A DNA stretch of 64,000 nucleotides. Origin: Glycomyces sambucus (GTDB lineage Bacteria > Actinomycetota > Actinomycetes > Mycobacteriales > Micromonosporaceae). Below the pieces are notes generated by a model that worked only from the letters and a program-made list of their open reading frames with translations, did not search any database and was not told where the DNA came from. The stretch spans positions 186,001-250,000 of the forward strand of contig NZ_FNGF01000004.1 in the NCBI RefSeq assembly GCF_900102815.1, read 5' to 3'. The position numbers and the translations under genes are program-made. Positions within the stretch are counted from its first letter, which is position 1. Every line of letters starts with the position of its first letter. Shown piece after piece: positions 45,371-63,096 of this stretch.

Positions 45371-45504
45371 GGGGGGCTTCCTTTCTAGGCCGGTCCGGGT
45401 CGGCGCCCGCGCACCGCCGATCAGGCGGTACGGAGGCGGGGGGAAGTGGGTGTGCGGAGAGGCGGGACCGGCTGCCGCCAGCGTAGGGAGCCGCCCGCAC
45501 AAGC

Positions 45505-45526
45505 AGCGCATACGAAGCGCATACAC
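45505..45526. promoter_or_regulatory. 11-bp direct repeat, probable SARP site
   Basis: AGCGCATACGA (45505-45515) is followed directly by AGCGCATACAC (45516-45526), an 11-bp period in the 249-bp gap between the secreted-protease operon and the SARP gene. A weaker CGCACA lies one period upstream. Confidence 0.65.
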
Positions 45527-45606
45527 CGCTCCGCGACGCAGGTGAACGCCCTGGTCACGGACGGTGCGGCCCACAGTGCACCGGTCGATTCCCCGACCCG
45601 TCCTGT

Positions 45607-45612
45607 TAACCT
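45607..45612 (+). promoter_or_regulatory. -10 element of leaderless SARP gene
   Basis: TAACCT lies 7 nt before the ATG at 45620, no ribosome site is present, and the -35 region is weak. Confidence 0.5.
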
Positions 45613-45619
45613 GTGCGCC

Positions 45620-48403
45620 ATGCGCTTCAGGGTGCTGGGACCGCTTCGCGCGGACGCTGACGGCCGCCCGCTCCGGCTCGGCGGGCCCCGCCAGCGCGCG
45701 GTCCTGGCGGCACTCCTCACCAGCCCGAACCGGACGCTGAGCCGCACCCGCCTGATCGAACTGGTCTGGGACGAGCCGCCGCCCTCCGCCGAGGCCAACC
45801 TCCGCAGCTTCGTGTGGAAGCTGCGGACCCTCCTGGCCGAACCGGGCGACGAGGTCCCGCGCATCCTGCACGAGCAGGGGTTCCGCCTCCGCGTCGAACC
45901 CGGGGAGCTCGACCTGTGGGACTTCGACCGGCACGCCGAGCAGGCCCGGCGGGCCCGCGGCGAGGGCCGCGCGGCCGACGCCGCCGCGGCCTACGGGCGG
46001 GCGCTGGAGCTGGTGCGCGGCGAGCCCTTCCAGGACATCGAGGCCGGGGCCCGCTTCGACTGGATCCGTGCGGCGCTCCGGGAGCGCCTCGACCAGGTCG
46101 CCGAGCAGCACATCGACCTCGGCATGGACCTCGGCGCCCACGCGGGGCTCGTCGCCGAGCTGCGCGACCGGCTCGCCCAGCGGCCCCTGCGGGAGCACTT
46201 CGCGGCGCAGCTCATGCTCGCGCTGGCGCGGTCGGGGCGCCGGGGCGAGGCGCTGGCCGTCTACCGCGAGACGCGCGCGGTCCTGATCGAGACCCTTGGG
46301 GCCGAACCGGACCGGGAACTCCAGGAGGTCCACCGCCAGGTCCTGGACGGCCGGGTCGCGGCGGTCCCCGCGGCCCCGGTTCGGACGGTGCCGCCCGCCG
46401 CGCCCGTCGACCTGCTGCCGTTCGACCTGCGCGTCTTCTCGGGCCGGGAGGCGGAGCTCAAGCAGCTCGAGGCGCTGGCCGACCCGGGTTCGGCGGCGCG
46501 GATCGCGGTGGTCTCGGGGAGCGCGGGCATGGGCAAGACGGCCGTCGCGGTCCACTGGGCGCACCGGGCCGCGGCCGGGTTCCCCGACGGGCGCCTGTAC
46601 GCGGACCTGCGCGGTTTCGGCCCCGGCGAGAGCGCCGCCGACCCGGGCGAGGTGCTGCGCTCGTTCATCGAGGCGCTGGGCGACGCCCCGGCGGCGGTAC
46701 CGGCGGGCACCGAGCAGCGGGCGGCCCGGTTCAGGCGCCTGCTCGCGGACAAGCGGGTGCTCCTGCTGCTCGACAACGCGCGGGACCCGGCGCAGGTGCG
46801 GCCGCTGCTGCCCGGCGCGGCCGACTGCGCGGTGGTGGTGACCAGCCGCAACCGCCTCACGGGCTTGATCGCCTCCACCGGGGCGATGGTGGTCCCGCTG
46901 GAGGCCATGCCGCAGCCGCAGGCGCGAGCGGTCCTGGCGGGCCGGCTCGGTGCCGAACGGCTGGCCGACCGCGATGCGGTGCAGCGCCTCCTGGACGTCT
47001 GCCGCGGACTCCCGCTCGCCCTGTCCGTGGTCGCCGCGACCGCGGCCTCACGGCCCGGTGACGGGCTCGATGTGCTCGCAGATGAACTCGACGCCGCCGC
47101 GACCCCCCTGGACGGCCTCGCCGCCGCCGACCCCGAGACCGATCCCCGCACCCTGCTCGACTGGTCGTACCGGCAGCTCTCGCCCGAGACGGCGCGCCTG
47201 CTCCCGCTTCTGGCCCTCCATCCGGGCCCCGACTGGACGGCCCCGGCCGCCGCGAGCCTGGCCGGCACCGGACTGCGTCCGACCCGGGCGGCCCTGGCCG
47301 AACTGGTCGAGGCGAACCTGCTCCTGTGGACGCCGCAGCACCGGTACGGCTTCCACGACCTGGTGCGCGCCTTCGCACTCGAACTCGCGGACCGCGAGCC
47401 GGAGGAGCGCGACGCGGCCCGGCTCCGGATGCTCGACCACTACCTGCACACCGCCTTCGCCGCCGACCGGCTGCTCGATCCGACGCGCAGCCCGATCCGC
47501 CTGTCCCCCGTCCCCGCGGGTGTCGAGCCCGAGCGGATCGCGGACGGCGACGCGGCGATGCGCTGGTTCAGCGCCGAGGACGCGGTCCTGGCGGCGCTGG
47601 TCGACCGCTCCGCCGCGCTCGGCCATGACGCCCACTGCTGGCAGTTGGTCTGGACCCTGCTCGATTATCTCAACCGGCGGGGCCGCACGCATGGCCTCGT
47701 GCTCGTCAGCGAGCGGGCTCTGAAGGCCGCGACCCGGATCGGCGACACCGAAGCGCAGACGCGCGCGCTCCGCGACCTCGGCCAGACCTCCGCCCGCCTG
47801 GACCGGTTCACCGACGCTCGGGAGTACCTGGAGCGGGCGCTCGCGCTGTCCGAGCGGGTGGACGACGAGCGCGGCCAGGCGCTCGCCCATCATCTCCTCG
47901 GGCGGCTCTGGCGGCGGCAGCGGCGACTGCCCGAAGCGCTCGACGCCACCCGCCGGGCGCTCGCCCTGTTCGAGTCCACCGGCGACCGGGTCGGCCGGGC
48001 CCGGTCCCTCCAGGCGATCGGCTACCACCACCTCGTCGTCGGCGAGCACGCCGCCGCGCTGCCGTACAGCGAGCAGGCCAGGGCCCTGTTCCGAGAGCTC
48101 GGCGATCCGGCCAGTGAGGCCGCTGTGCGCGACGACATCGCCTCGGTCCACCACCATCTCGGGGACTTTCCTAGGGCCGTCGCAGAGTTCGAGGGCGCAT
48201 TCGCTCAGTTCCATGAGCTGGGCTTCCGGCGCGGTGAAGCCGAGGTCCTGGTCCACCTCGGCGAGACCCATGTCGCGGCGGGCTCCCCCGAGGCCGCTCG
48301 CCGCGTCTGGGAGGCGGCCTTGGTGATCTTCGACGACTTGGACCATCCTGGGGCGCAGGAGCTTCGGACTCGGCTGAGCGCGCTCGACGGGTCTGAGGAC
48401 TGA
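45620..48403 (+). CDS. AfsR-type SARP regulator with NTPase and TPR domains
   Basis: 927 aa from ATG at 45620 (the longer frame lacks a start signal). Residues 1-95 are the winged helix (MRFRVLGPLRADADGRPLRL, RILHEQGFRLRV), 100-250 the BTAD domain, and 280-560 an NB-ARC-type NTPase with Walker A VSGSAGMGKTAVA, Walker B RVLLLLDNARD and GLPLAL. TPR repeats fill residues 690-920. ATP binding likely controls DNA binding. It is divergent from the secreted metzincin operon across an 11-bp direct repeat, so that operon is its probable target. Confidence 0.93.
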   Translation: MRFRVLGPLRADADGRPLRLGGPRQRAVLAALLTSPNRTLSRTRLIELVWDEPPPSAEANLRSFVWKLRTLLAEPGDEVPRILHEQGFRLRVEPGELDLWDFDRHAEQARRARGEGRAADAAAAYGRALELVRGEPFQDIEAGARFDWIRAALRERLDQVAEQHIDLGMDLGAHAGLVAELRDRLAQRPLREHFAAQLMLALARSGRRGEALAVYRETRAVLIETLGAEPDRELQEVHRQVLDGRVAAVPAAPVRTVPPAAPVDLLPFDLRVFSGREAELKQLEALADPGSAARIAVVSGSAGMGKTAVAVHWAHRAAAGFPDGRLYADLRGFGPGESAADPGEVLRSFIEALGDAPAAVPAGTEQRAARFRRLLADKRVLLLLDNARDPAQVRPLLPGAADCAVVVTSRNRLTGLIASTGAMVVPLEAMPQPQARAVLAGRLGAERLADRDAVQRLLDVCRGLPLALSVVAATAASRPGDGLDVLADELDAAATPLDGLAAADPETDPRTLLDWSYRQLSPETARLLPLLALHPGPDWTAPAAASLAGTGLRPTRAALAELVEANLLLWTPQHRYGFHDLVRAFALELADREPEERDAARLRMLDHYLHTAFAADRLLDPTRSPIRLSPVPAGVEPERIADGDAAMRWFSAEDAVLAALVDRSAALGHDAHCWQLVWTLLDYLNRRGRTHGLVLVSERALKAATRIGDTEAQTRALRDLGQTSARLDRFTDAREYLERALALSERVDDERGQALAHHLLGRLWRRQRRLPEALDATRRALALFESTGDRVGRARSLQAIGYHHLVVGEHAAALPYSEQARALFRELGDPASEAAVRDDIASVHHHLGDFPRAVAEFEGAFAQFHELGFRRGEAEVLVHLGETHVAAGSPEAARRVWEAALVIFDDLDHPGAQELRTRLSALDGSED

Positions 48404-50374: not shown

Positions 50375-50490
50375 GCCCGGTGCGGCGGGCGGGCCGCGGT
50401 CGCGGAACCCCCAGGCCGCGCAAGCACGCGGCCTCTCAACGCCGCCGCACCTCCCCCGCGCGGGGCCGACGTTCACACGGCCCGCGCGGA

Positions 50491-50530
50491 CGGGGCCGGC
50501 CGATCCCGGGTGGAGGATCGACCGGCCCCG
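50491..50530. terminator. Long bidirectional hairpin
   Basis: A 16-bp stem with one mismatch joins 50491-50506 to 50515-50530, in the 169-bp gap between the unknown pair and the convergent MFS gene. It is the likely end of the PknG operon. Confidence 0.8.
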
Positions 50531-50543
50531 GTTCTGTCCCGGT

Positions 50544-51821
50544 TCAGTCCGCGGCGGGCGCCGGGGACATCGCCAGGCCGAGGAGCGTGATCCCCAGGGC
50601 CGCACTCGTGTAGAGGGCGATCGCACCGGTCCCGAAGGCGCCGTACAGGCCGATCGCGATGAGCGGGGCCAGCGCGCCACCGGGCACGCCCGCGAGCTGG
50701 TAGCCGAGCGAGGTCCCCGAGTAGCGCACCCGGGTGGCGAAGCGCTCGGCGATGAACGCCGCCTGCGGTCCGTACATCGCGGCGTGCGCGACCAGTGCGA
50801 CGATCACGGCCACCGCGATGAACGCGGTCGAGCCGGTGTCGAGGAGCGGGAAGAACAGCCAGGCCCACACTCCGGCCGCCACGGTGCCCGCGGCCATGAT
50901 GCCCTTGCGGCCCATGCGGTCCGAGAGCCGCACGAACCAGGGTATGAGCAGGAGCTGCACGGCCGATCCGGCCAGGACCGCGCCGAGGCCCACGTCCTGG
51001 CCGACGCCGACCACCTCCGTGAGGTAGGTGATGAGGTAGAGCGTGAAGACGTAGAAGGCCACATCGACACCGATGCGGGTGCAGAACGCCGCGAGCAGGG
51101 CGCGCTTGTGGGTGCGGAAGACCTCGCCGAGCGGGTTGGCGGGGACCGCGCGGATCGAGGCGAACAGGGGCGACTCGGCGACGTTGCTCCGGATCCACAG
51201 GCCCACCAGGGAGAGCAGGGCCGACACGAGGAACGCGAGGCGCCAGCCCCAGGTCATGAAGGCGGCGTCGCTGAGGATCAGGTTCGATCCGGCGAGCACG
51301 CCCGCGGCGAGGAGGTTGCCCGCGGGGACGCCGAGCTGGACCCAGGCGGCGGCCGCGCCCCAGCGGTCGCGGCGGTCGTGCTCCATGGAGAGCAGGACCG
51401 CGCCGCCCCATTCGCCGCCGAGGCTGAGCCCTTGCAGGAAGCGCAGGAGGACGAGGATGACCGGCGCGGCGAGGCCGATGCTGTTGTAGGTGGGGAGGAT
51501 GCCGATGAGGAAGGTCGACATGCCCATGAGCAGCAGCGAGACCGCGAGGACGTTGCGGCGCCCGACCCGGTCGCCGAGGTGTCCGAAGAGGATGCCGCCG
51601 ATCGGGCGGGCGGCGAAGCCGATCCCGTAGGTGGCGAAGGCGAGGAGGGTTCCGGCGGCCGGGGAGGCCGAGGGGAAGAACAGGGGGCCGAAGACGAGGG
51701 CGGCGGCGGTGCCGTAGAGGAAGAAGTCGTACCACTCCAGGGAGGTGCCGACGGCGCAGGCGGCGATGACCGCGCGGGGCGAGCGGGCGGTGCCGGGCTT
51801 GGCGGTGAGGACGGCCATCAT
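50544..51821 (-). CDS. MFS transporter, metabolite:H+ symporter (MHS) type
   Basis: 425 aa from ATG at 51821 (ATGA overlap with the GlnH-like stop). The N-terminus CAVGTSLEWYDFFLYGTAAAL and FGHLGDRVGRRNVL with LLRFLQGLSLGGEWGGAVLL are characteristic of the MHS family, which includes 2-oxoglutarate, proline/betaine, citrate and shikimate permeases. Twelve hydrophobic segments. Being last in a PknG operon, which in relatives controls 2-oxoglutarate dehydrogenase, it may carry 2-oxoglutarate or another dicarboxylate; this is inference only. Confidence 0.87.
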   Translation of the reverse strand: MMAVLTAKPGTARSPRAVIAACAVGTSLEWYDFFLYGTAAALVFGPLFFPSASPAAGTLLAFATYGIGFAARPIGGILFGHLGDRVGRRNVLAVSLLLMGMSTFLIGILPTYNSIGLAAPVILVLLRFLQGLSLGGEWGGAVLLSMEHDRRDRWGAAAAWVQLGVPAGNLLAAGVLAGSNLILSDAAFMTWGWRLAFLVSALLSLVGLWIRSNVAESPLFASIRAVPANPLGEVFRTHKRALLAAFCTRIGVDVAFYVFTLYLITYLTEVVGVGQDVGLGAVLAGSAVQLLLIPWFVRLSDRMGRKGIMAAGTVAAGVWAWLFFPLLDTGSTAFIAVAVIVALVAHAAMYGPQAAFIAERFATRVRYSGTSLGYQLAGVPGGALAPLIAIGLYGAFGTGAIALYTSAALGITLLGLAMSPAPAAD

Positions 51822-52642
51822 GCGCACCCTTCGTACTGGGGGATCGGGATCGATTCGAGGTCCATCCCGGCGGGCGCGAACCACTGGCGCATGAGGAGTT
51901 CGGCGGTGCCGTCGGCGTACATGTCGGTGATCGCGCGGTTGACGGCCTCGCAGCCGGCCGTGTCGCCCTGCTGCATGCCGATGCCCAGGCGCTCTTCGGA
52001 GTAGCCGGCGCCGACGAGGCGGGCGGCGCCGCCGGACTGCCAGGCGAGGCCGGCGAGGATGCGGTCGTCGGTGGCGAGGACGTCGACCTCCCCGGCGATC
52101 AGCATCTCCAGGCAGGCGATCGAGTCCTCGGCCTCGACCGGGACGGCCGAGACGCCGTGCTCCACGGTGATGCGGTCGGCGACGTTGGAGCCGCGCGCGG
52201 AGCAGAGGCGGCGGCCCTCGATGTCGGCGAGGCCGGTGATCGTGGTGTCGTCGGCGCGCACGAGGAGGTCCTGGTGGGCGATGGCGTAGGGACCGGCGAA
52301 GGCGATGTCGCGCTTGCGTTCCTGGGTGATGGAGAAGGAGGCGATGGTGAGGTCGGCGCGGTCCTCGAGGAGCACGGTCTCGCGGTCGGCGGTGAGGATC
52401 GGGACCCACTCGATCTCCTTGCCGAGGCTTTCGGCGATGTAGCGGGCGGTGTCGACGTCGAAGCCCTCGTACCGGCCCTCGTCGTTCTCCCAGCCGATGA
52501 GCGGCTGGTCGGTCTGGACGGCGATGCGGAGCACGTCGCCGTCCAGGATGGAGTCGTGGTCGGCGGCGCAGCCGGAGGCGGCGAGCGGGAGGGCGCAGAG
52601 GGCGGCGAGGAGCGGGGCCGTGCGCCGGAACGTCGGTGTCAT
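51818..52642 (-). CDS. glnH: GlnH-like amino-acid-binding lipoprotein
   Basis: 274 aa. Signal peptide with lipobox LAASGC, Cys25, so a lipid-anchored extracellular protein. SBP_bac_3 fold: LRIAVQTDQPLIGWEND, YEGFDVDTARYIAESLG, ADLTIASFSITQERKRDIAF. In mycobacteria and corynebacteria GlnH binds Asp or Glu and signals through GlnX to PknG. No ABC permease or ATPase is near, which supports a sensing rather than a transport role. It is coupled to its neighbours at both ends by ATGA. Confidence 0.9.
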   Translation of the reverse strand: MTPTFRRTAPLLAALCALPLAASGCAADHDSILDGDVLRIAVQTDQPLIGWENDEGRYEGFDVDTARYIAESLGKEIEWVPILTADRETVLLEDRADLTIASFSITQERKRDIAFAGPYAIAHQDLLVRADDTTITGLADIEGRRLCSARGSNVADRITVEHGVSAVPVEAEDSIACLEMLIAGEVDVLATDDRILAGLAWQSGGAARLVGAGYSEERLGIGMQQGDTAGCEAVNRAITDMYADGTAELLMRQWFAPAGMDLESIPIPQYEGCA

Positions 52643-54048
52643 CGGAACTCCCTGAGTCTGGGGGCGATGCCCGTGAAGGTGAAGGCGGCCAGCGCGACCA
52701 TCGCGGCGGGCAGGAGGAACGCGAAGTCGGCGATGGCCTGCTCGCCCTCCTCGATCCCGGCGCGGAAGGTGCCCAGGTGCTCCTCGGAGAGGGCCGCCAG
52801 CGCGGTGTCGTAGTCGATGTACGCCTCGCGGACCGAGGCGAGGCGTTCGGCGGCGGTGCCGTCGCCTTCGCGCATGGCGGCGTCGGCGTTCATGAGGGTC
52901 TGCCAGGCGCGGGCGGCGTCCCAGGTGGCGTCGCTGCCGGTGAAGGCTTCGGAGAGCAGGCCCGGGGTGCGTTCGGGCGCGGCGAGGGGCGCGTTCCACG
53001 CTTCGGCGAGGAGGTCGCGGTACTCGCCGAGGTTGCCGGCCTCCCGGTAGTGGAGGGCCTGGGCCTTGTCGAAGAGGGTCTGCTCGTAGATGGCGGCGCG
53101 CTCGGCGTCGAGGAGGTAGCGGACCTGGTCCACGTACAGGGCGTTGGAGACGGCGTTGGCGCGGGCGAGGGACAGGGCGTTGTCGAAGCCGCCCTCCTTG
53201 GCGGTCTGCTGGGCGGACTGCTCGGCGTTCAGGACCGCGAGGCCGGTGCCGAGGTAGAGGAGGCAGACGGCGGTGGCGACCAGGAGGGAGGGGTTGAAGA
53301 CGCGGCCGTAGCCGCGGGCGAGGTGGATCTGGAGCCAGACGAGGGCGGCGAGGGCGATCGCTCCGGCGACGGCGACGACGAGGAGGCCGGTGTCGATGCG
53401 GTTCTCGGCGCGGTCGTACGCCTCGCGGACGGCGGTGGCGTTCTCCAGGGTGAGGTTGTAGGACAGCGGGAGGAGCTGGCCGCTCATTAGGTCGCCGGCC
53501 TCGCGGTAGGCGGCGACGACGTCGGGCGGGGCCTCGCCCTGGGGGTAGGCGGCCTGCTCGGCGAGGAGGAGGGCTTCGGCGGCCAGCTGCTCGTAGCGGC
53601 CGTAGTGCTCCATGACGGTCTCGATGGTGGTGCGCTGGGCGGCGTCGTCGCCGGCGAGGCGGTGGGCTTCGAGGAGGGCGGCGGCGATCTCGCCGCGGCG
53701 CTGGTCGTAGCGGGCGCGGGCCTCGTCGGTGCCGGCCTGGTCGGAGGTGCCGAGGAGCAGGAGGGTGGCGACTTGGGCGTCGGCGTCGGAGAGGGCGAAG
53801 TAGAGGTCGGTGGTAGCGACGACCTGGGGCCCGGCCTCGTGGCCGATGACGTCGAGGGCGTCGTTGGCGGCGGCCGCGGCCACGGCGAGGGCGGTGAGCA
53901 TGGCCGCGAGGGCGGCCACGGCGGCGACGGCGCGGACCAGGAGCTTGGAGGGCGAGGCGGTCTTGTAGACGAGTTCGAGGCGGGCGGTGAGGGGGTCCTC
54001 GTCGAGGCGGGTGACCGCGCGGCGGGCGAGGACGGGGGTGCTCCTCAT
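52639..54048 (-). CDS. glnX: GlnX-like four-helix membrane sensor
   Basis: 469 aa. Four membrane helices are visible: about residues 38-62, 222-243, 250-273 and 443-463, leaving two large extracellular helical domains of about 160 and 170 residues. The extracellular parts are Ala/Glu-rich four-helix-type, like chemoreceptor sensor domains, and no kinase or methyl-accepting region is present. In relatives GlnX links GlnH to PknG inside the cell. Synteny (glnX next to glnH and pknG) is the main evidence. Confidence 0.85.
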   Translation of the reverse strand: MRSTPVLARRAVTRLDEDPLTARLELVYKTASPSKLLVRAVAAVAALAAMLTALAVAAAAANDALDVIGHEAGPQVVATTDLYFALSDADAQVATLLLLGTSDQAGTDEARARYDQRRGEIAAALLEAHRLAGDDAAQRTTIETVMEHYGRYEQLAAEALLLAEQAAYPQGEAPPDVVAAYREAGDLMSGQLLPLSYNLTLENATAVREAYDRAENRIDTGLLVVAVAGAIALAALVWLQIHLARGYGRVFNPSLLVATAVCLLYLGTGLAVLNAEQSAQQTAKEGGFDNALSLARANAVSNALYVDQVRYLLDAERAAIYEQTLFDKAQALHYREAGNLGEYRDLLAEAWNAPLAAPERTPGLLSEAFTGSDATWDAARAWQTLMNADAAMREGDGTAAERLASVREAYIDYDTALAALSEEHLGTFRAGIEEGEQAIADFAFLLPAAMVALAAFTFTGIAPRLREFR

Positions 54049-55118
54049 CGGTTGTCCTCCTTTCCTATGCGGCGCAGGCGGATCGCGGTCCAGGCGCCGA
54101 GGTGGATCGGGGTGCCCTCGGGGAGCGGGACGGGGACGTTGGCTTCGAGGCGGCGCCCGCCGAGGCGGGTGCCGTTGTAGGAGCCGAGGTCCACGATGGA
54201 CCAGGTGTCGCCTGTGCGCATGAGGACGGCGTGGAGGTGGGAGACGCCGATGTCGGCGGGTGCGGCGGCGAGGTCGATCTCCGGGCGGTCGCCGCCGTCG
54301 CGGCGGCCCCGGCCGATGCGGACCTGGTCGCCGCGCAAGGAGATCGTGCGGTCGGGGGCGTAGGGCGGGAAGGGGAGCGAGTCGCTGTCGGCGTGGACGG
54401 CGAGCCGGTCGTAGAAGTCGCGGTCGGCGGAGACGAGGACTTCGAAGGCGGGGCCGGGAGGGGCGGCTCCGCGGGCGGGGTCGCCGGGGCGGGCCGGTCC
54501 GCCGCTCGCGGCGGCGTCGGCTCCAGGCGATCGAGCGGGTCCGCCGCTGCGGGCGGGGTCGGGCCGCCGCACCGCCCCGGAAGCCGTGCCAGGGTCCCGG
54601 TCCGAATCGGGCCCACCGCCCGCGGCGCCGCCCGGCGATCGGTCCGAGTCAGGTGCCCGTACCGCCCCGGAGGCCGCGCCAGGATCCCGGTCCGAATCCG
54701 GCCCGCCGCTGGGCGATCGGTCCTGCTCGGACCCGTTGCCCGGGGCCGGGTCCGGCCACCGCACCGCCGCCGCGGCCGGATCGGGGTCGGTCCCGCCGCC
54801 CGGGGCGTCGGTTCCGGCCGGGCCGGAGTGCCCGTCCGCGTGCGGGTCGGCGACGGCCGCAGCCGCATCCGAGGCGAACGTCGTGTGGCCGCTGATCGGG
54901 CTCGGGCCCGGGTCGTCGCCCTCGAAGTTGTAGCCGCACGCCTGGCAGAAGCGGCCCAGGCGCCGCTCCCCGCAGGCGGGGCAGCGGGGCTGGGGCAGGA
55001 TCGGGCCGGTGGCGTGGAGCGGCAGCGCCGCGTCGCCGCCGGCGAGGGGGCGGCCGCAGTGGTCGCACCACTCGGTGTCGGCGGACTCGCCGTCGCAGCT
55101 CGGGCAGGTGACGGTCAC
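54045..55118 (-). CDS. Zinc-ribbon and FHA-domain protein
   Basis: 357 aa from GTG at 55118 (GTGA overlap with the VWA stop). Two zinc ribbons open it (CPSC/CDHC and CPAC/CQAC, residues 4-65). A Gly/Pro/Asp/Ser-rich linker of about 150 residues follows, with a repeated GPDSDRDPG...SGAVR unit. The C-terminal FHA domain (about residues 260-350) has RIGRGRR, SHLHAV and YNGTRLGG, the phosphothreonine-binding pattern. It could be a target or adaptor of the PknG-like kinase, taking the place of GarA/OdhI, which are FHA proteins. Confidence 0.88.
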   Translation of the reverse strand: MTVTCPSCDGESADTEWCDHCGRPLAGGDAALPLHATGPILPQPRCPACGERRLGRFCQACGYNFEGDDPGPSPISGHTTFASDAAAAVADPHADGHSGPAGTDAPGGGTDPDPAAAAVRWPDPAPGNGSEQDRSPSGGPDSDRDPGAASGAVRAPDSDRSPGGAAGGGPDSDRDPGTASGAVRRPDPARSGGPARSPGADAAASGGPARPGDPARGAAPPGPAFEVLVSADRDFYDRLAVHADSDSLPFPPYAPDRTISLRGDQVRIGRGRRDGGDRPEIDLAAAPADIGVSHLHAVLMRTGDTWSIVDLGSYNGTRLGGRRLEANVPVPLPEGTPIHLGAWTAIRLRRIGKEDNR

Positions 55119-56398
55119 GTGAGCTCCGTTCGCGAGGTGGGCGTGCGGACCGTGCGGTCGGTGCCCACGTCGATGGCGAGCCGGTCCTCCTCGGTCACGC
55201 CCTGCTTGAGGCGGGCGGTGCCGGTCCCCGGGTCGAAGTCGATGATGCGCTCGATGAGGCGCGCGGTGGCGCGGTTGCCGGCCTCCTCGGCGAGGGTGCG
55301 GGCCGTGGCGAGGTGGCGGGTGGCGGTCGGCGGGTCGCCCGCGCGGAGGGCGGCGAGGCCGGTGCGCACGTGCGCGGCCAGCTGCTCCTGCCCGGTGTGG
55401 ACGGCGACCTTGGCGTTCACCTCGGTGTTCAGGACCGGGTCGTCGGTCCAGCACACGAGGAGGTTGCCGCGGGCCAGGACCTCGTGGTCGGGGCCGCGCA
55501 CGAGGAGGACCTGCGCGGCGCGGCGCTCCTCCCCCACCGGCCAGGCCGGGGCGGCCACGTCCAGCATGTACTCGCGGGTCTCGGTGCCCCACGCGGCCAG
55601 CGGGAACAGGGCGCTGCGGGCGTCGAGGTCGCGGCGGTGGCCCGCGAGGTCCTGGAGGGTCGGGTAGACCTGTCGCAGCGACCCGATCGCCACGTCGGCG
55701 GGGGTGCGGACCAAGAGCGCGACGTCGCCGTACGCCTTGCCCATGGCCTTGCCGCAGACCTCGGTGAAGTAGTCGGTGAGGTCGGCGAGGTCCTCGATGA
55801 AGGCGCGGGTGCCCTGGAAGCGGTCGGCGATGTGCTTGAGCTGGTCGGGGTCCCAGTCGATGCCGATGCCGACCGCGTCGCACGCGAACCTGCCCTCGCA
55901 GTAGTCGAGGTCGGCGGTGTAGGAGGCGCTGTCCTGGTTGACCATCCCGTCGGTGAGGAGCAGCACGTGGCCGATCGCGCCGGGGCGGGAGGCGAGCAGG
56001 TCGGCGGCGCAGCGCAGCCACACGCCGGTGTAGGTGAGGTTGCCGAGCGTCATGCGGTCGATGGCGTTCGCGGCGGCCTTGCGGTGCCTCGGGATCGCGG
56101 TGGCGAGGGCGCCGCCCCCGGGGTAGAGCTGGGTGGCGTCGTGGCCGCCCGCGACGATCGCGAAGTAGGCGTCCTCGCGGAGGGCGTCCAGGGCGGCCTT
56201 GGCGGCGCGCTTGGCCTCGGCGAGCTTGACGCCGCCCATCGACGGGGAGCGGTCGATGACGATGACCTCGGCGACCTCGGCCGCGGCGGACTCCGTGGTG
56301 CGGCACTCGATGCCGAGCACGGCCGCCATCTCGGCGGTGCCGGGCGGCACGAACTTGTTCTGGTCCACGGTGAGGGTGAAGGCGGTGGTGTCGGTCAT
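55115..56398 (-). CDS. VWA-domain protein
   Basis: 427 aa from ATG at 56398 with GAAGGGAA upstream. The von Willebrand A domain (about residues 40-220) has the metal-adhesion site DRSPS at 49-53 (DxSxS), GNLTYTGVWL and LLLTDGMVNQ. A beta-sandwich region follows to about 350, then helical repeats. No signal peptide, so it is cytoplasmic. VWA proteins act as metal-dependent protein-interaction modules and in TerY-type systems stand next to kinases. It lies between pknG-like and FHA genes in the operon. Confidence 0.87.
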   Translation of the reverse strand: MTDTTAFTLTVDQNKFVPPGTAEMAAVLGIECRTTESAAAEVAEVIVIDRSPSMGGVKLAEAKRAAKAALDALREDAYFAIVAGGHDATQLYPGGGALATAIPRHRKAAANAIDRMTLGNLTYTGVWLRCAADLLASRPGAIGHVLLLTDGMVNQDSASYTADLDYCEGRFACDAVGIGIDWDPDQLKHIADRFQGTRAFIEDLADLTDYFTEVCGKAMGKAYGDVALLVRTPADVAIGSLRQVYPTLQDLAGHRRDLDARSALFPLAAWGTETREYMLDVAAPAWPVGEERRAAQVLLVRGPDHEVLARGNLLVCWTDDPVLNTEVNAKVAVHTGQEQLAAHVRTGLAALRAGDPPTATRHLATARTLAEEAGNRATARLIERIIDFDPGTGTARLKQGVTEEDRLAIDVGTDRTVRTPTSRTELT

Positions 56399-56438
56399 CT
56401 CGGGTTCCCTTCGAGCGGAGTGGGGCGGCGGGGGCGGG

Positions 56439-58859
56439 TCACAGCCAGGTCCGGGGGCGCACGCGGTTGGCCTCCCCGACGATCGACCAGCGCACCCGCG
56501 GCGAGGGGGTCCTCGCGGCGATGCGGCGCAGGACCGCCTCGCGGGCGGTGCCGACCGCCTCGGCGGTGAACGGGACCCCGTACAGGACCGTGTCGGGTTC
56601 GGGGCCGGTGCGGTCGAGCACGTCGGCGGCCGTGCTCCAGAGTTCGGCTTCGAGCAGGTCGGCCTCGGCCCTGTCCAGTGTGGTCAGTCCTTCAAGGAGC
56701 GCGGCGGCGCGCTTGAGGCCGGCGAGGGTCGGCACGGGCTCGCGGACGAGCCGCGCCAGCAGCGCCTGGCGGGCGGCGGCGTGGCTCGACGAGGACGCCG
56801 GGACCGCCTCCAGGGCCGCGAAGTCGCCCGCGCCGCGGGCGAGACCGAATGCGGCGCTGGTGAAACCGCGGTCGGTGCGCCACACGCGGGCGTGGTGCGC
56901 GGTGCCGCCGCCGAGGGCTTCGGCGCTGATCGCCAGCGCCTGCAACGGGGCCAGCTCGCCGGGGAGGTGGGCGCGGACGCGGGAGAACCAGTAGGCCGCG
57001 TCCGGTCGGCGGTCGGTGTCGCCCAGGGCGGCCACCCCGCGGTACCAGTCCAGGCGCCAGTCCGCGCCGAGTTCGGCGGCGGCCTCGACCAGGAGCGGGT
57101 CGGTGCGCTCGGAGCGGGTCTCGGCGGCGAGGCGGAGCTGCGCCAGGCGGGCCTCGGGCGTGCGCGGCAGGGCCTCCACCAGGGGGAGCGCGGTCTCGGG
57201 CGGCTCGGCGGCGAGGCCGGCCAGGGCGACCGCCGCGGGATCGGCGGGGTCGGTGAGCGGGGCGGGCAGCAGGCGGCGGGCGTGGAGGGGGTCGGCGGGG
57301 GCGAGGACCTGCGAGGGGGCGGGGCTGACGGCGCTGGCGTAGGCGCCGCGCTCGGGTCCGAAGTGGGCGGACACGGCGGGGTAGGGGGTGTCGTCGAGTC
57401 CGGCGCGGATCTGGCGCAGGACGCCGGTGAGCTGGTCGGCCATGTCGGCGGCGGAGGCGAAGCGGGAGCGCGGGTCGGGGTGGCAGGCGCGTTCGAGGAG
57501 GAGGTACAGGGATTCGTCGAAGCCTTCGGGGCGCGGCGGGAGCGGCACGGCGACGGGGACGCCCGAGGCGCCGCGGGCGGCGGGGACGTGGGCGAGGGTG
57601 AGGACGGCGAGGGTGCGGCCGACGGTGAAGAGGTCGGAGGCGACGTCGGGGAAGCGGTCGCCGGTGATCTCGGGGGCCTGGTAGCCGATGGTGCCCCAGA
57701 CGTCGCCGCCCGTGTCGCCGATGCGGCGCATGGCGCCGAGGTCGATGAGGCGGATGCGGTCGCCGACCTGGATCAGGTTGGCGGGCTTGAGGTCGCAGTA
57801 GACCATGCCGGAGGCGTGGAGGTGGCCGAAGGCGGCGAGGGCTTCGAGGATGCAGGGGATCGCCCACTCGGGGGGCATCGGGCCGCGGCGCTCGGCGAGG
57901 CGGGTGCGGAGCTGGTCGCCGAGGGAGACGCCGCCGATGTACTCCATGACGAGGTAGCCGGAGAGGGTGCCGTCGCGGGGGTCGCGGTGCTGCACGAAGT
58001 TGTGGATCTTGACGATGCCGGGGTGGTCGACGGCGATGAGGAAGCGGCGCTCGGCCTCGGCAGCGGCGAGGGCCGCGGCGTCGGTGGTGTTGAGCAGTCC
58101 CTTGAGGACGACCCACTTGCCGTCGAGGTTCCGGTCGGCGGCGAGGTAGATCCAGCCGAGGCCGCCGTGGGCGATGCAGCCGCGGATCTCGTACTGGCCG
58201 GCGACGAGGTCGCCGGGCTTGAGGGCGGGCGTGAAGTCGAAGGCGGCGCCGCACTCGGGGCAGAACCCGGCGGCGCGGTCGACGTGGCCGAGTCGGTGGC
58301 CGTTGGCGCAGCGGCGGTCCCCGGCGGGGACGGCCGGGTCGGTCATGAGCGCGGAGGTGGGGTCGGTGACGGGGACCGAGGGCAGGTCGGCGAGCCCGGT
58401 GCCGAGGCGGCCGGCGGAGCGGCGGGAGGAGGTGGAGGGAGCGGAGGGGGTCGAAGGGGTGCTGTTGAAAGAAGGGGCGGCGGCGGGCGCGGGGGCGGCG
58501 GGGCGGCCGCAGTCATCGCAGTAGCCGTCCGGGTCGAAGGCCCCGCCGCAGTGGGAGCAGGTGGTGGGCGGGGCGGAGGCGTTGGCGGGCTGCGCGGCGA
58601 GGCCGGCGCCCGGATTGGCGGCGTGCGACGGCTGCGCGGCGGGCCCGGCGCCGGGAGCGTATGCGGGCTGCGGTGCGGCGCCGGGCGCGGGCGGGCCGGC
58701 GCCGGGTCCGTACTGCGGCGGACCCGCGGGCGGGGTCGGCCCGCCCGAGAACATCGGACCGGTGGCGAAGGGCGCGGACGGCAGGGCCTGGAGGCCGCAG
58801 TCGTCGCAGTAGCCGTCGGCGTCGATGGCGCCGCCGCAGCGGGTGCAGGGGTCGGTCAT
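56439..58859 (-). CDS. pknG: PknG-like serine/threonine kinase with zinc ribbons and TPR domain
   Basis: 806 aa from ATG at 58859 (ATGA overlap with the upstream gene). Three CxxC zinc-knuckle pairs come before the kinase (CTRCGG/CDDCG, CSHCGG/CDDCGR, CANG/CPECG), one more than in mycobacterial PknG, with Pro/Ala linkers. The kinase has Gly-loop IAHGGLGWIYLA, Lys in WVVLKG, catalytic Asp356 in YCDLKPANL, and DLG in place of DFG as in PknG. A TPR-type helical domain fills about 530-806. It should phosphorylate FHA proteins controlling 2-oxoglutarate dehydrogenase and glutamate metabolism. Confidence 0.93.
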   Translation of the reverse strand: MTDPCTRCGGAIDADGYCDDCGLQALPSAPFATGPMFSGGPTPPAGPPQYGPGAGPPAPGAAPQPAYAPGAGPAAQPSHAANPGAGLAAQPANASAPPTTCSHCGGAFDPDGYCDDCGRPAAPAPAAAPSFNSTPSTPSAPSTSSRRSAGRLGTGLADLPSVPVTDPTSALMTDPAVPAGDRRCANGHRLGHVDRAAGFCPECGAAFDFTPALKPGDLVAGQYEIRGCIAHGGLGWIYLAADRNLDGKWVVLKGLLNTTDAAALAAAEAERRFLIAVDHPGIVKIHNFVQHRDPRDGTLSGYLVMEYIGGVSLGDQLRTRLAERRGPMPPEWAIPCILEALAAFGHLHASGMVYCDLKPANLIQVGDRIRLIDLGAMRRIGDTGGDVWGTIGYQAPEITGDRFPDVASDLFTVGRTLAVLTLAHVPAARGASGVPVAVPLPPRPEGFDESLYLLLERACHPDPRSRFASAADMADQLTGVLRQIRAGLDDTPYPAVSAHFGPERGAYASAVSPAPSQVLAPADPLHARRLLPAPLTDPADPAAVALAGLAAEPPETALPLVEALPRTPEARLAQLRLAAETRSERTDPLLVEAAAELGADWRLDWYRGVAALGDTDRRPDAAYWFSRVRAHLPGELAPLQALAISAEALGGGTAHHARVWRTDRGFTSAAFGLARGAGDFAALEAVPASSSSHAAARQALLARLVREPVPTLAGLKRAAALLEGLTTLDRAEADLLEAELWSTAADVLDRTGPEPDTVLYGVPFTAEAVGTAREAVLRRIAARTPSPRVRWSIVGEANRVRPRTWL

Positions 58860-60238
58860 GGGCGGTCTCCGTTCACGGACGCGGCGAGGGCGTCGACGGC
58901 CTTGCGGGCCTCGGGAAGTGAACAGGGGGCGGTCCACAGGACGGTTCGGGCGCGTTCCCAGGCGGTGCGGAACCGCGGGTCGGAGGCGAGTCCGAGGCGG
59001 TCGGCGCGGGCGCGGTAGGCCTCGGCCTCGCTGCGGAGGCGGTTGCGGTGGTGCAGGGGCTCGTTGCAGGCGGCGAGGGCGTCGGCGACGCGGCGCTCGG
59101 CGGCGTCGATGTTGCGGGACAGGCGCTTGCGGACGCGGGTGGTCTCGGTCCAGCCGGGCTCGCCCAGGGCGGGGATGTCGGCGAGGCGCCCGCGAAGGGA
59201 CCCGGCGGCGGTCCTCGGGCGGGGGACGCGGGGGTCGCTGATGCGGGCGCGGGTCTCGGCCCAGCGGGCGAGGGCCTGCGACTCTTGGGCTTCGAGGGCG
59301 TCGAGCCGGGAGACGAGGGGGTCGGTCCCGTCGAGCGCCGCCTGGGCGAAGGCGGCCTCGATCTCGTCGAGGAGGTCGGAGACGGTCCGGAAGCGGTCGG
59401 CCAGCACGGCGAGCACGCCGTCGTGGCGGAGCCGGGTCCCGGTCGGCTCGCCGCCCCCGGGACGCCCCACGCCGAACCCGGGAGGCGCGCCGAGCTCCGG
59501 TCGGAGGGCGAATCCGAAGGCGCCCAGGTGAACATCGGCCGAGTCCGCCCCCGACCAATTCGCGCCAGGCCCACCGCTAGCCGAATCGCCTCCCGCACGA
59601 GACCCACCGACACCGCTCGCCGAGTCCACCCCGAGATGCGGCACACCGCCAGCGGCCGGGTTCGAGCCGCGGCCGCCCGCGCCCCCAGCCGATCCGGCGG
59701 CGTCAGCCGAGCCGGCCGCCGAGTCCGCTCCGGGGCGCGGCGCGCCACCGGCACTCGGGTTCGAACCGGGGCCACCCGCACTTCCGGACGAATCGGGCGG
59801 GTCAGGCGGGCCGGCCGAATGCGCCGAAGCCGCCGAGCCGGTCGGGTCGGCCGAGCCCTCCCGACCGCCCGCCTCGTGTGGCGCCGGCCGAGGGGCGTCA
59901 CCCCTCCCTCGCAACTCCGGCTCCGGGTCCGGGTCTATGAAGTGGCCGTTGAGCATCGCTTCCGCCACATCCGCGGCCCGGCCGAGGCGGCCCTTCCCGT
60001 CGCGGAGGGCGGCGATCTCTCGCAGGCGGGCGTCCCAGGAGCGGAACAGGGCCCAGAGGCGGTCCCACTCCCCCAGCGCCCTCGCGCAGCGGCCGCCCGC
60101 GGCGGCGTCCGCCTCCAGCCGCAGCCACCCGAAGGAGGTGCGGGCCTCGCAGTCGAGGAGGAGGGCGGCGACCTGGTCGCGGTCGGCGAGGCGGTCGTCG
60201 AGGGCCTGCTCGACCGCGTCGCGGTCTGTGGGTGCCAT
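58856..60238 (-). CDS. Linker-rich protein of unknown function, first gene of the PknG operon
   Basis: 460 aa from ATG at 60238 with AAGGAGGT 5 nt upstream, the strongest ribosome site in the region; a TTG 21 nt earlier overlaps that site. Residues 1-100 and 270-460 are helical, Arg/Ala/Leu-rich, and coiled-coil-like. A Gly/Ser/Ala/Pro linker of about 150 residues (DSSGSAGG, NPSAGGAP type units) connects them. No catalytic or metal motif. It overlaps the kinase gene and opens the operon, so it may be a scaffold of the kinase complex. Confidence 0.75.
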   Translation of the reverse strand: MAPTDRDAVEQALDDRLADRDQVAALLLDCEARTSFGWLRLEADAAAGGRCARALGEWDRLWALFRSWDARLREIAALRDGKGRLGRAADVAEAMLNGHFIDPDPEPELRGRGDAPRPAPHEAGGREGSADPTGSAASAHSAGPPDPPDSSGSAGGPGSNPSAGGAPRPGADSAAGSADAAGSAGGAGGRGSNPAAGGVPHLGVDSASGVGGSRAGGDSASGGPGANWSGADSADVHLGAFGFALRPELGAPPGFGVGRPGGGEPTGTRLRHDGVLAVLADRFRTVSDLLDEIEAAFAQAALDGTDPLVSRLDALEAQESQALARWAETRARISDPRVPRPRTAAGSLRGRLADIPALGEPGWTETTRVRKRLSRNIDAAERRVADALAACNEPLHHRNRLRSEAEAYRARADRLGLASDPRFRTAWERARTVLWTAPCSLPEARKAVDALAASVNGDRP

Positions 60239-60393
60239 GTCGACCTCCTTCCGCTGCAACCGGTTCCTGTGTCCTATGCGACAGCGTAGTGCGGGAGGGC
60301 CCGGCAGGGGTACCGTCGAATCCGCCCCGATTCGCCTACTACCAGGGCAAACTGGTCATCCGGCGAGGTCGGCGGTGACCGGCTGTGAAGAAA

Positions 60394-63096
60394 TCATGAG
60401 CCGGTCATGCGCCGCAGGCTCGCCCGCGACTGCGCGTGCCGCCCCCAAGCCCGGTAGACCTCGGCGAGATGCGCATGGACCTCGCGGGCGCCAGCCGGAT
60501 CGCCGCCCCGATCGAAGCGGGCGAGCGCCGGGACGAGGGCCTGTTCGGCGGCGGCGAAGTCCCGCATCCGGTAGTGGAGCCAGCCGAGGGTCATGCTCAT
60601 GACCCCCGCGTCCGCTTCGCGGCCAGCGCTTTCCGCGGCGTCCAGAGCGGAGGCCAGCAGCGGCAGCGCTTCGCGCTCCCGGCCGAGCCGGGCCAGCGCG
60701 GTCGCGAGGTTCGCGCGGGCGCTGCCGTACCGGTCGCCGTGCTCGGTGCGCTCCATCGCCTCGAGCGCGGCCCTGCCGTACTCCTCGGCCTTGGCCAGCG
60801 CCCCGCGCGCGTACGCGGCGACCGCCACGAGGTTCCGGTGGCGGGCGAGGTGCAGCGGGTCCACACCGCTGAGGATAGAAGCGTCCCCACCCGAGTCCGG
60901 TCCGGCGGCCGTGCCGCCGGCCGCCGCTCCGGGTCCGCCTGAGCCACTGCCGACTCCGCCGAGCCCTGGTCCGCCGCCGGCCACCGTATTCGGTCCGGCC
61001 GAGTCCCTGACGGAACCCGGCCCGCTCCCGGTCGCCGTCTCCGTGCGACCGGCCGCCATCGCGCCGGCCGGCCCGGCGGCACCGGGCGCTCCGGCCTGCC
61101 CGTCAGGGCCGATCGCAGCCAGTGCGGCCTCGCCCAGCCGCTCCAGCTCCTCGGGCCGGTGGCCTCGTTTCGCGAAGCCGCACAGCACATCCGCGAGCGC
61201 GGCGCCCTCCGGGAAGGCCGCCCAGGCGCGATACGCGGCCGTCAGGAAGCCGTACTCCGCCAGCGGCGCCGGGGCGCGCAGGTCGCGGAACGCCGCCACC
61301 GCCCGCTCGCGCAGCGCCCGCTCCTCGTCCGGCGTGGCGGGCTCCTTCGCCCGCGCGTACTCCCCTACCAGCCGGTGCAGCCGGTACCGGCCGTCCGCCC
61401 CCGCGCGCAGCAGGTGCGCCGCGACCAGTGCCGCCAAGACCGCCTCGCCGTCGGCGCCCGAGGCCGAGGCCAGCCGCAGCGCCGTGCGCTCGCCGATGTC
61501 CGGGCCCGGCAGCAGCGCCAGGTCGCGGAGGCACCGGCGCTCCTCCGCTTCGAGTCCCGCGTACGAGAGGTCGAAGACGCGGGCGATCTCCCCGCGCTCG
61601 CCCGCCTGCCACAGGCGGCCGTCGCCGAGGCGCTTCGCCAAGCCCGCCAACCCGAGTGCGGGCCGGTCGTCCAGCAGCCCGGCGGCGATCCGCAGCGCCA
61701 GCGGCAGGCCGCCGCAGTGGGCCGCGACGGCAGCGGCGTCGGCCTCCCGCGCGGCGGTGTCGCCCGTCAGGCCCCGCAGCAGCGCGATGGCATCGGGTTC
61801 GGGGAGTTCGGCGATCTCGACCGTGACGGCGTCGCTCACGTGCCGCAGCCGGTCGAACCGCGCCCGCCCGGTGACCACCAGCGCCGAGCCGCCCGCGCCG
61901 GGCAGCAGGGGGCGCACCTGGTCGGCGTCCCGGGCGTTGTCGAGGAAGACCAGGAAGCGGCGGCCGGCCAGGAGCGCGCGGTAGTTCGCGGCGGCCTGGC
62001 CGGGGTCGTCGGGGAGGTCGGCCTGGCGGGTGCCGAGGGCGCGCAGGAAGCCGTGCAGCACCGCGAGGGGGTCGGCGGCCCCGGCGGCGTCGCCGCCGCG
62101 CAGGTCGGCGTGGAGCTGGCCGTCGGGGAAGTCGGCGGTGCGGCGCCGGGCCCACTCCAGGCCGAGGGAGGTCTTGCCCGCGCCGCCGATGCCGGTGATG
62201 GCGACGACCAAGGGGCTCTTGGCGTCGCGTCCGGTCCACCGCGCGTCGATGCGTCCGAGTTCGACGGCGCGGCCCACGAAGCCGGGGACGGGCGCCGGCA
62301 GCTGGCGCGGGACCGGCGCCGGGCGCCGCACCGAGGGCTCGCCGGTGCGGGTGTGCGGGTCGAGGTTGCCTTGGAGCACGTCGAGGTGCGTGCGCCGCAC
62401 CTGCGGGCCGGGGTCGGCGCCGAGCGTGTCGGCGAGGGCCCGGCGCAGGTGCTCGAACGCCTCCAGCGCCTCGGCCGTGCGGCCGGTGGCGTGGAGGCCG
62501 ATCATGAGCTGGCAGACCAGGCGCTCGCGGAACGGGTGGTCGGCGAGCAGGGCCCGCGCCTCGATGGCGGCCTGGTCGAAGCGGCGGAGGTAGAGGAGGA
62601 GGTCGAGGCGTTCCTCCACGACCTCCATCCGGGACTCCTCCAGGACGGCCGCGCCGTGCTCGATGAGGCGCCCGGCGATCCCCGCGAAGGCGGGCCCGCG
62701 CCACAGCTTCAGCGCCCGGTCGTAGACCGCGAGGGCCTCGACGGGGTCGCCGTCCTCCATGAGCGAGTGGGCGAAGGCGCGGGCGGACTCGAAGCGGTCG
62801 ACGTCGATCCCGCCGGGGCCGACCTGGAGCCGGTAGGCGGCGCCGATGGTCTCCAGGGCGCACCCGGGGTCGTCGGCGATGAGGCTGCGGATCTCGGCGA
62901 CCCGGTTCTGGATCTGCCGCAGGGCCGTGCGGGGCGGCTCGTCCCAGGCGGCCTCGATGAGGCGGCCGGTGCCGACGGGACGGTTGCGTTCGAGCAGGAG
63001 CACGGCGAGGATGGCGGCGGTCTTGCCGAGGAGCGGGCGCGGCTCCGGCGCTCCGTCGACGGCGATCTGGAGCGGGCCGAGGACCATGAACCGCAT
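60394..63096 (-). CDS. AfsR-type SARP regulator with NTPase and TPR domains
   Basis: 900 aa. Winged helix (MRFMVLGPLQIAVDGAPEPR), BTAD to about residue 245, then an NB-ARC NTPase with Walker A ITGIGGAGKTSLGL, Walker B RFLVFLDNARD and GGLPLALR. The helical repeat part is split by a Gly/Ser/Ala insertion of about 70 residues (near 680-750). It lies 155 bp upstream of the PknG operon on the same strand, so it may influence it. No biosynthetic cluster is adjacent. Confidence 0.92.
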   Translation of the reverse strand: MRFMVLGPLQIAVDGAPEPRPLLGKTAAILAVLLLERNRPVGTGRLIEAAWDEPPRTALRQIQNRVAEIRSLIADDPGCALETIGAAYRLQVGPGGIDVDRFESARAFAHSLMEDGDPVEALAVYDRALKLWRGPAFAGIAGRLIEHGAAVLEESRMEVVEERLDLLLYLRRFDQAAIEARALLADHPFRERLVCQLMIGLHATGRTAEALEAFEHLRRALADTLGADPGPQVRRTHLDVLQGNLDPHTRTGEPSVRRPAPVPRQLPAPVPGFVGRAVELGRIDARWTGRDAKSPLVVAITGIGGAGKTSLGLEWARRRTADFPDGQLHADLRGGDAAGAADPLAVLHGFLRALGTRQADLPDDPGQAAANYRALLAGRRFLVFLDNARDADQVRPLLPGAGGSALVVTGRARFDRLRHVSDAVTVEIAELPEPDAIALLRGLTGDTAAREADAAAVAAHCGGLPLALRIAAGLLDDRPALGLAGLAKRLGDGRLWQAGERGEIARVFDLSYAGLEAEERRCLRDLALLPGPDIGERTALRLASASGADGEAVLAALVAAHLLRAGADGRYRLHRLVGEYARAKEPATPDEERALRERAVAAFRDLRAPAPLAEYGFLTAAYRAWAAFPEGAALADVLCGFAKRGHRPEELERLGEAALAAIGPDGQAGAPGAAGPAGAMAAGRTETATGSGPGSVRDSAGPNTVAGGGPGLGGVGSGSGGPGAAAGGTAAGPDSGGDASILSGVDPLHLARHRNLVAVAAYARGALAKAEEYGRAALEAMERTEHGDRYGSARANLATALARLGREREALPLLASALDAAESAGREADAGVMSMTLGWLHYRMRDFAAAEQALVPALARFDRGGDPAGAREVHAHLAEVYRAWGRHAQSRASLRRMTGS

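Follow-up and report, generated by a model that had tools for sequence, protein, structure and literature searches.

The window analysed here is a 64,000-nucleotide stretch of the Glycomyces sambucus genome (contig NZ_FNGF01000004.1, positions 186,001 to 250,000), and it carries seven minus-strand genes that encode the protein kinase PknG, GlnH-like and GlnX-like proteins, a VWA protein, a zinc-ribbon/FHA protein, a linker-rich "scaffold" protein and an MHS-family transporter (Table 1). The seven reading frames contained no internal stops and five of the six gene junctions overlapped by ATGA or GTGA, the junction between pknG and the VWA gene being a gap of about 40 bp, which bears out the proposal of a first-pass annotation that all seven lie in one operon. 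The Pfam and NCBIfam assignments matched the names given there, with GlnX and the zinc ribbons scoring under the cut-offs, and profile matches upheld its placing of GlnH, GlnX (a divergent one) and PknG homologues within the same operon. Other genomes have the same sets of genes around pknG, which makes chance a poor explanation of this arrangement.

Table 1. Features of the pknG operon and its flanks (window coordinates).
Feature	Position	Strand	Evidence or remark
Linker-rich "scaffold" protein gene, 460 amino acids	58856..60238	-	profile homologue close upstream of pknG at 26/30 family loci
pknG paralogue, 806 amino acids	56439..58859	-	Pfam; 2 N-terminal zinc ribbons, degenerate rubredoxin, kinase, TPR
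PknG zinc ribbon 1, residues 5-21	58797..58847	-	
PknG zinc ribbon 2, residues 101-117	58509..58559	-	
VWA protein gene, 427 amino acids, intact metal-ion-dependent adhesion site (MIDAS)	55115..56398	-	Pfam VWA_3 + VWA_3_C
VWA C-terminal tail, residues 412-427, candidate PknG phosphosite Thr416 (codon 55151-55153)	55118..55165	-	predicted local distance difference test score (pLDDT) <50
Zinc-ribbon/FHA protein gene, 357 amino acids	54045..55118	-	Pfam FHA 44.9 bits (over cut-off)
GlnX-like transducer gene, 469 amino acids	52639..54048	-	NF058618 210.5 bits; hydropathy
GlnH-like lipoprotein gene, 274 amino acids, altered ligand pocket	51818..52642	-	SBP_bac_3 99 bits (over cut-off)
MHS-family (MFS) transporter gene, 425 amino acids	50544..51821	-	MFS_1 91.3 bits (over cut-off); TIGR00883 378.6 bits, cut-off 443
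BTAD/NB-ARC/TPR AfsR-like (SARP) regulator gene, directly upstream	60394..63096	-	Pfam BTAD 125.6 bits
Hairpin, unbroken 17-pair stem, directly 3' of transporter gene	50491..50530	-	minimum free energy -44.8 kcal/mol over 50480-50545

The window kinase scored 156.3 bits for PF16918 (PknG_TPR), 52.2 bits for PF16919 (PknG_rubred) and 80.8 bits for PF00069 (Pkinase), all over the cut-offs, and it unites the rubredoxin-type region, the kinase and the PknG TPR in one chain, as expected of a PknG kinase. Its residues 151-804 aligned to the Mycobacterium tuberculosis PknG structure 2pzi (E 3.9e-115); the kinase motifs were intact, and one rubredoxin CxxC motif reads CANGH. The VWA protein was over the cut-off for both of its Pfam domains. 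The FHA protein consists of two zinc ribbons (residues 5-62), which score as a double zinc ribbon below the Pfam cut-off, a low-complexity linker and an FHA domain at residues 266-341.

The scaffold protein had no Pfam or NCBIfam match at the limits used, and a fold search found nothing at E values of 0.001 or below. A protein search returned at least seven matches including itself, of which the three with an organism name were from Glycomyces, and its wider kin were found by a local profile search of pknG loci. The AlphaFold2 model predicted an N-terminal helical bundle, a low-confidence Gly/Ala/Pro/Ser linker of about 150 residues and a C-terminal helical domain, with a ten-residue mean pLDDT above 80 outside residues 101-270.

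The hairpin past the transporter gene had a z-score of -4.11, with 1 of 200 shuffles equally good and a T-run absent, and it is the probable end of the operon. A search for promoter and terminator patterns in the stretch that separates the BTAD gene from the scaffold gene (positions 60200-60500) found none.

Spread and descent of the pknG locus

To place the operon, partner genes were counted on the same strand within 8 kb of pknG (within 1.5 kb for the scaffold gene); these thresholds were set by us, and the sample is biased because part of the loci were found through likeness to the window kinase. In the family to which the window genome belongs, 35 of the 38 pknG loci above the cut-off were examined, including the two of the window genome, and three in fragmented assemblies were left out. 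Among the 30 family loci outside Glycomyces, glnX was found at 29, glnH at 29, the scaffold gene at 26, PP2C at 25, VWA at 27 and FHA at 24, and all six partners were present at 21. The full locus has the gene order glnX-glnH-scaffold-pknG-PP2C-VWA-FHA. All six partners also occurred at the three main loci of a further family (f4, with large genomes, probably Streptomyces) and at 6 of 18 Pseudonocardiales loci other than Amycolatopsis, 15 of which had VWA. At the six loci of the mycobacterium-like group and its relatives (f2), glnX and glnH were found at five and the other partners at none; at the 34 Amycolatopsis loci, glnX and glnH were found at 32 and PP2C, VWA and FHA at none. The scaffold, VWA and zinc-ribbon/FHA genes are therefore old partners of pknG and not additions.

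A widely conserved three-gene operon has been reported for the PknG system in the available text of PMC6069109. Because most of the family and f4 loci examined carry the further partners, describing the window operon as "expanded" probably has the direction wrong, and the mycobacterial three-gene form looks reduced. The expectation that the extra genes are conserved with pknG held for the FHA, VWA and linker-rich genes, in several families, and failed for the MHS transporter gene, which lies outside the widespread locus. The seven-gene form with PknG is apparently undescribed, as judged from the open-licence literature searched. We also observed a second class of pknG locus (L108, L109, L093, L058, L062, L067, L089, L095 and L096), with scaffold and VWA genes, in which PP2C and a separate FHA gene were not found; here the VWA protein has a zinc-ribbon-like stretch at its C-terminal end.

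A second pknG lies on another contig (C11) of the window genome (5.6 Mb, 16 contigs); it scored 234 bits for PknG_TPR against 160 for the window copy, and its canonical locus has the order glnX-glnH-pknG-PP2C-FHA. The two kinases are 39% identical. A canonical-type kinase was present in all 22 Glycomyces genomes, and 16 of these canonical loci were examined; the window type occurred additionally in 8 of the 22. In a kinase tree for which 71 sequences were kept out of 123 (only four from Amycolatopsis, with near-duplicates and short pieces removed), the seven accessory kinases formed one clade with SH-aLRT support of 100; the deeper origin of this clade was less certain, with support of 87-88. 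An origin by recent duplication from the canonical operon of Glycomyces was rejected: placing the accessory kinases in one clade with 10 canonical Glycomyces kinases gave an approximately unbiased test p of 9e-100, on a quick tree with flagged long branches and for a group chosen after the tree was seen. The identity of 39%, the single accessory clade and the rejected joint clade together show that the PknG nutrient-sensing locus of actinobacteria is represented in the window by an accessory paralogue that diverged long ago. It is either an ancient paralogue or was imported, and not a fresh copy.

Across the eight accessory loci (the window included, with two contigs of genome G215 counted as one), VWA, GlnX, GlnH and FHA were found at eight, MHS at seven, BTAD at five and the scaffold gene at three, the FHA gene of locus L114 having been read directly from the sequence, outside the scored survey. 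Pfam detected no PP2C among the window operon proteins, and none turned up at the remaining accessory loci. The window type is set apart by the lack of PP2C, the PP2C-like ribbons of the kinase, the downstream position of glnX and glnH, the altered GlnH pocket, and the MHS and BTAD genes. Such an operon might be a mobile or decaying passenger of little function, with an incidental transporter and regulator: its distribution is patchy (8/22 genomes), the scaffold, MHS and BTAD genes were not found at 5, 1 and 3 of the 8 loci, and the genome with loci L054 and L114 has an apparent VWA frame shift. We regard this as very improbable, since the seven window genes are intact and tightly packed, the kinase motifs, MIDAS and FHA residues are conserved, and the gene order is kept among accessory copies even though their kinases share only 48-55% identity with that of the window.

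The zinc ribbons of the window kinase were compared with ribbons from operon phosphatases (87) and from operon FHA proteins (20). The two kinase ribbons reached mean scores of 48 and 45 (best 77 and 82) against the phosphatase ribbons, and of 34 and 33 (best 42 and 52) against the FHA-protein ribbons; the second ribbon of the window FHA protein was of the FHA type in the same scoring. The suggestion that kinase and FHA protein share ribbon modules was thus not supported, the kinase ribbons being closer to those of the operon phosphatases, and by ribbon similarity it looks as if the kinase took over a phosphatase-type ribbon as the phosphatase gene disappeared. An N-terminal ribbon pattern scan of 115 other kinases gave two matches, a near relative (L110) and an unconvincing stretch (L112), and the G215 kinase also has an N-terminal stretch that matches the ribbons.

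Input and output of the accessory copy

The GlnX-like protein matched nearly the whole NF058618 model (210.5 bits, E 4.6e-62, cut-off 250), compared with 372.7 bits for its canonical paralogue, and hydropathy gave four hydrophobic segments once overlaps were merged; by profile score it is a divergent, GlnX-like member. In M. tuberculosis GlnH, the aspartate side chain is contacted by R147, T162 and W232, and by K161 via water (PMC6069109, available text). The window GlnH has R, S, S and A at the positions of R147, T162, W232 and K161, which departs from the Asp/Glu-specific residue set. All eight accessory GlnH proteins carry A at the K161 position and S, A, Y or F, never W, at position 232; among 101 other GlnH copies, position 232 was W in 64 and F in 16, and position 161 was R or K in 77. 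The equivalents of S164 and R169 were retained in all eight, as was D at the first of two candidate D250 positions, in line with the residues of amino-acid-binding SBP family 3 proteins. Because S164 and R169 are kept, amino-acid binding by the accessory GlnH is plausible on residue grounds, but the Asp/Glu specificity known for GlnH cannot be assumed.

Turning to the output, we take Thr21 to be the first of the two threonines in the ETTS motif of GarA. The PknG site in GarA is Thr21, which lies within ETTS and corresponds to Thr14 in OdhI, according to the available text of PMC8546545 and PMC12321487. The operon FHA protein scored only 20.6 bits against the GarA/OdhI model NF041660 (cut-off 200) and has no ETTS, and a separate GarA-like gene is present on another contig (C6; 196.6 bits, just below the same cut-off). 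The idea that the operon FHA protein replaces GarA was therefore abandoned for this genome, although it may supplement GarA.

GarA matches in the family numbered 68, from 61 genomes; 30 were taken, and 27 were readable by anchor. These rows read DVTST or DVTAT in 26 cases and DATAT in one, so that the first ETTS threonine is replaced by V (26) or A (1) and the second remains. Family GarA thus seems to lack the threonine that PknG phosphorylates, an alignment of a short stretch that is open to argument, and for this reason the textbook GarA output cannot be assumed here. Elsewhere, all 20 matches from 18 chosen genomes were taken and 18 were readable: Pseudonocardiales rows read ERTS in six cases and ETTS in one, Actinomadura read ESTS in one, and ETTS was kept in the ten f2, Nocardia, f4 and Streptantibioticus rows. 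We considered whether the operon FHA gene caused the loss of the GarA threonine and rejected this as a clean rule, the pattern being broken by Amycolatopsis, f4 and Pseudonocardia acaciae. In the GarA loci of f4, Streptantibioticus and Actinomadura (L178-L181 and L172), GarA has a zinc-ribbon-like stretch (CSNCGAPL or CSNCGTPL) in its N-terminal part, so that its architecture resembles that of the operon FHA protein.

These data bear on the view that the system is ordinary mycobacterial nutrient sensing, with both PknG paralogues acting on GarA and the partners tuning kinase assembly or stability. GarA was present in 61/61 family genomes, and the conserved R147, S164, R169 and one D250 position of GlnH make amino-acid binding plausible, as this view would have it; V or A at the first ETTS threonine in all 27 readable rows speaks against it, as does the finding of pknG in only 31/61 genomes of a sample in which GarA is universal. 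PknG may often have been lost from the family without loss of GarA, and we consider this explanation distinctly unlikely.

The MHS transporter had been proposed as an output and is at most a candidate for that role; it was rejected as a general PknG partner. In Amycolatopsis an MHS gene stands beside pknG on the same strand at 20 of 34 loci, the best being about 37% identical to the window MHS. Four other MHS matches in the window genome had 49, 45, 44 and 38% identity to it, and at both Amycolatopsis loci inspected (L020 and L027) an opposite-strand open reading frame (ORF) intervenes between MHS and pknG. On account of this lower identity and the intervening ORF, the Amycolatopsis genes were treated as unrelated. 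A BTAD homologue lies upstream of pknG at five of eight accessory loci, L111, without one, having little upstream sequence, and the BTAD gene of the window is likely part of the accessory locus. A second BTAD/NB-ARC/TPR AfsR-like regulator gene was observed on the other side of the operon (window 45446-48403). In L111 and L112, a small ORF about 0.6-1.3 kb upstream of the pknG match takes the BTAD/scaffold position of other accessory loci; the two ORFs have a common C-terminal stretch, HQxETKDGxQSNFFRLENPSREDA.

The VWA tail threonine and its candidate reader

The MIDAS residues D49, S51, S53, T122 and D150 of the VWA protein were conserved in 57/57 rows and then in 26/26 new rows. Its C-terminal tail, residues 412-427, is predicted to be disordered, and within the last 20 columns Thr416 was the most conserved position (T in 51/57 rows, S in 4/57, neither in 2/57). 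In newly drawn genomes of the class, T was found in 26/26 rows; of 46 matches, 30 were taken, mostly the best-scoring, four had already been seen and 26 were used (f4 11, f63 8, f62 4, f71 2 and f56 1, f4 having been in the first set already). Position 413 was S in 43/57 and in 26/26 new rows, and is T in the window. Of the 14 Glycomyces genomes that lack the accessory operon, 6 were searched for a VWA homologue and had none; two related genera gave none either, so that in Glycomyces the VWA gene seems to go with this operon.

The VWA tail of f4 (DEMTLETRS) looks by eye like the GarA peptide DEVTVETTS (PMC8546545, available text), a likeness that carries no statistic and was not used as evidence; the invariant VWA threonine is not the aligned one. 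In Glycomyces artemisiae (L054, 11979-13892, and L114), the VWA frame seems to be shifted near the C-terminal part, through a sequencing error or a lesion, and the FHA gene is in the frame of the VWA start.

The residues with which FHA domains read phosphothreonine (GR, SxxH and NG; R270, S293, H296, N315 and G316 in the operon protein) are present and conserved, with R270, S293 and N315 each found in 58/59 rows, from which phosphothreonine binding is predicted. With a kinase, a near-invariant tail threonine, a phosphothreonine reader and, at the full loci, a phosphatase in one operon, the simplest wiring is that PknG writes, FHA reads and PP2C erases. There is precedent in Agrobacterium, where PpkA phosphorylates TssL at Thr14 and Fha binds the resulting phosphothreonine (PMC3953482, available text).

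We therefore favour, with a probability of about 0.42, the reading that PknG phosphorylates Thr416 of the VWA protein, that the operon FHA protein reads this mark, and that the resulting complex acts on the transporter or the BTAD regulator and not through GarA. An extracellular small ligand, perhaps other than Asp or Glu, would bind the GlnH-like lipoprotein, and GlnX would pass the signal through the membrane to the TPR and kinase regions of PknG. The kinase would phosphorylate Thr416 in the disordered VWA tail, the FHA domain would bind the phosphothreonine, and a kinase-scaffold-VWA-FHA complex, held partly by zinc ribbons, would form. At canonical loci PP2C would remove the mark; the accessory operon would need a phosphatase in trans, such as the canonical PP2C. 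The complex would then act on the co-encoded transporter, the BTAD regulator or both, rather than on 2-oxoglutarate dehydrogenase via GarA Thr21. It is more doubtful that the circuit extends over much of the actinobacterial class, with a near-invariant VWA tail threonine written by PknG, read by FHA and erased by PP2C, mycobacterial GarA control as only one branch, and a second Glycomyces copy that lacks the phosphatase, differs in ligand specificity and has been rewired to a transporter and an AfsR-like regulator.

Several observations weigh against this reading. At the canonical Glycomyces loci and in two relatives (L097 and L099) FHA is kept although the locus has no VWA, so that FHA must have other partners, and some loci have VWA with no separate FHA gene found. 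The scaffold gene was found at only 3/8 accessory loci and the kinase ribbons are limited to the scaffold-bearing accessory sub-group; neither is essential. Four Ser residues and two rows with neither residue occur at the Thr416 position in the first 57 rows, and the conservation of Thr416 has other possible causes, the rows being related and the new ones mostly best-scoring. Amycolatopsis, in which no FHA was found, lost the GarA threonine, and f4 and Pseudonocardia acaciae, which have FHA, kept it.

The operon FHA protein could also itself be the PknG substrate, in the manner of GarA, with a threonine phosphorylated in the ribbon or linker and the FHA domain either docking on an autophosphorylated N-terminal threonine of the kinase or folding onto its own phosphothreonine; the VWA protein would then be a separate adaptor. 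PknG recruits FHA substrates through phosphothreonine in its N-terminal extension (PMC8546545, available text), the phosphothreonine-binding residues are intact, and the canonical Glycomyces loci with FHA and no VWA would fit. The missing ETTS and the score of only 20.6 bits to OdhI count against this, as does the linker, which is highly variable in length and composition and nearly gone in L111-L113; by eye, no linker threonine was conserved across the accessory copies, the only ones inspected, with no count over all loci. We judge a substrate role for the FHA protein rather unlikely.

The proposed phosphorylation of Thr416 is accessible experimentally, since a conserved single threonine offers a direct and cheap test of the partner wiring, and the Glycomyces accessory copy is a natural experiment in the re-targeting of a sensor. 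As a caution, PknG in antibiotic-producing actinobacteria need not act through GarA Thr21.

Likeness to known systems

The seven-gene locus resembles the GAP1-N2 triads, in which a kinase, often with a zinc ribbon, PP2C and a free vWA are adjacent (PMC7159879). GlnX, GlnH and FHA partners are absent from the available description of the triads, and PknG is unmentioned in the main text of that paper.

The likeness to type VI secretion threonine phosphorylation is a resemblance of logic rather than demonstrated homology. In that pathway PppA is a PP2C and the input is periplasmic, and both modules are also found in the seven-gene locus. A Ser/Thr kinase, a VWA and an FHA reader are likewise shared with the PpkA, PppA and Fha system (available text of PMC3953482), PpkA being a kinase plus vWA (available text of PMC1262709). 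Unlike the type VI pathway, in which kinase, PP2C and FHA act on a secretion apparatus, the window operon has a PknG-type kinase, a VWA in a separate gene and no PP2C, and no secretion genes were seen in the region, none being detected among the 13 window ORFs scanned with Pfam.

The closest known system is the GlnH-GlnX-PknG pathway of mycobacteria and Corynebacterium (PMC6069109 and PMC8546545, available text), with which the window has the three core proteins, the expected signal flow and the kinase motifs in common. The window differs from it in the added scaffold, VWA, FHA, MHS and BTAD genes, the two kinase zinc ribbons, the altered GlnH pocket, the presence of a canonical locus in the same genome and a family GarA that seemingly lacks the PknG threonine. 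Known PknG work, in the texts available, deals with the three-gene operons of mycobacteria and corynebacteria; should the seven-gene form prove common outside these groups, PknG has conserved partners whose role is unexplored. The window operon is a variant of a known sensor, with a partner set that is conserved and apparently undescribed.

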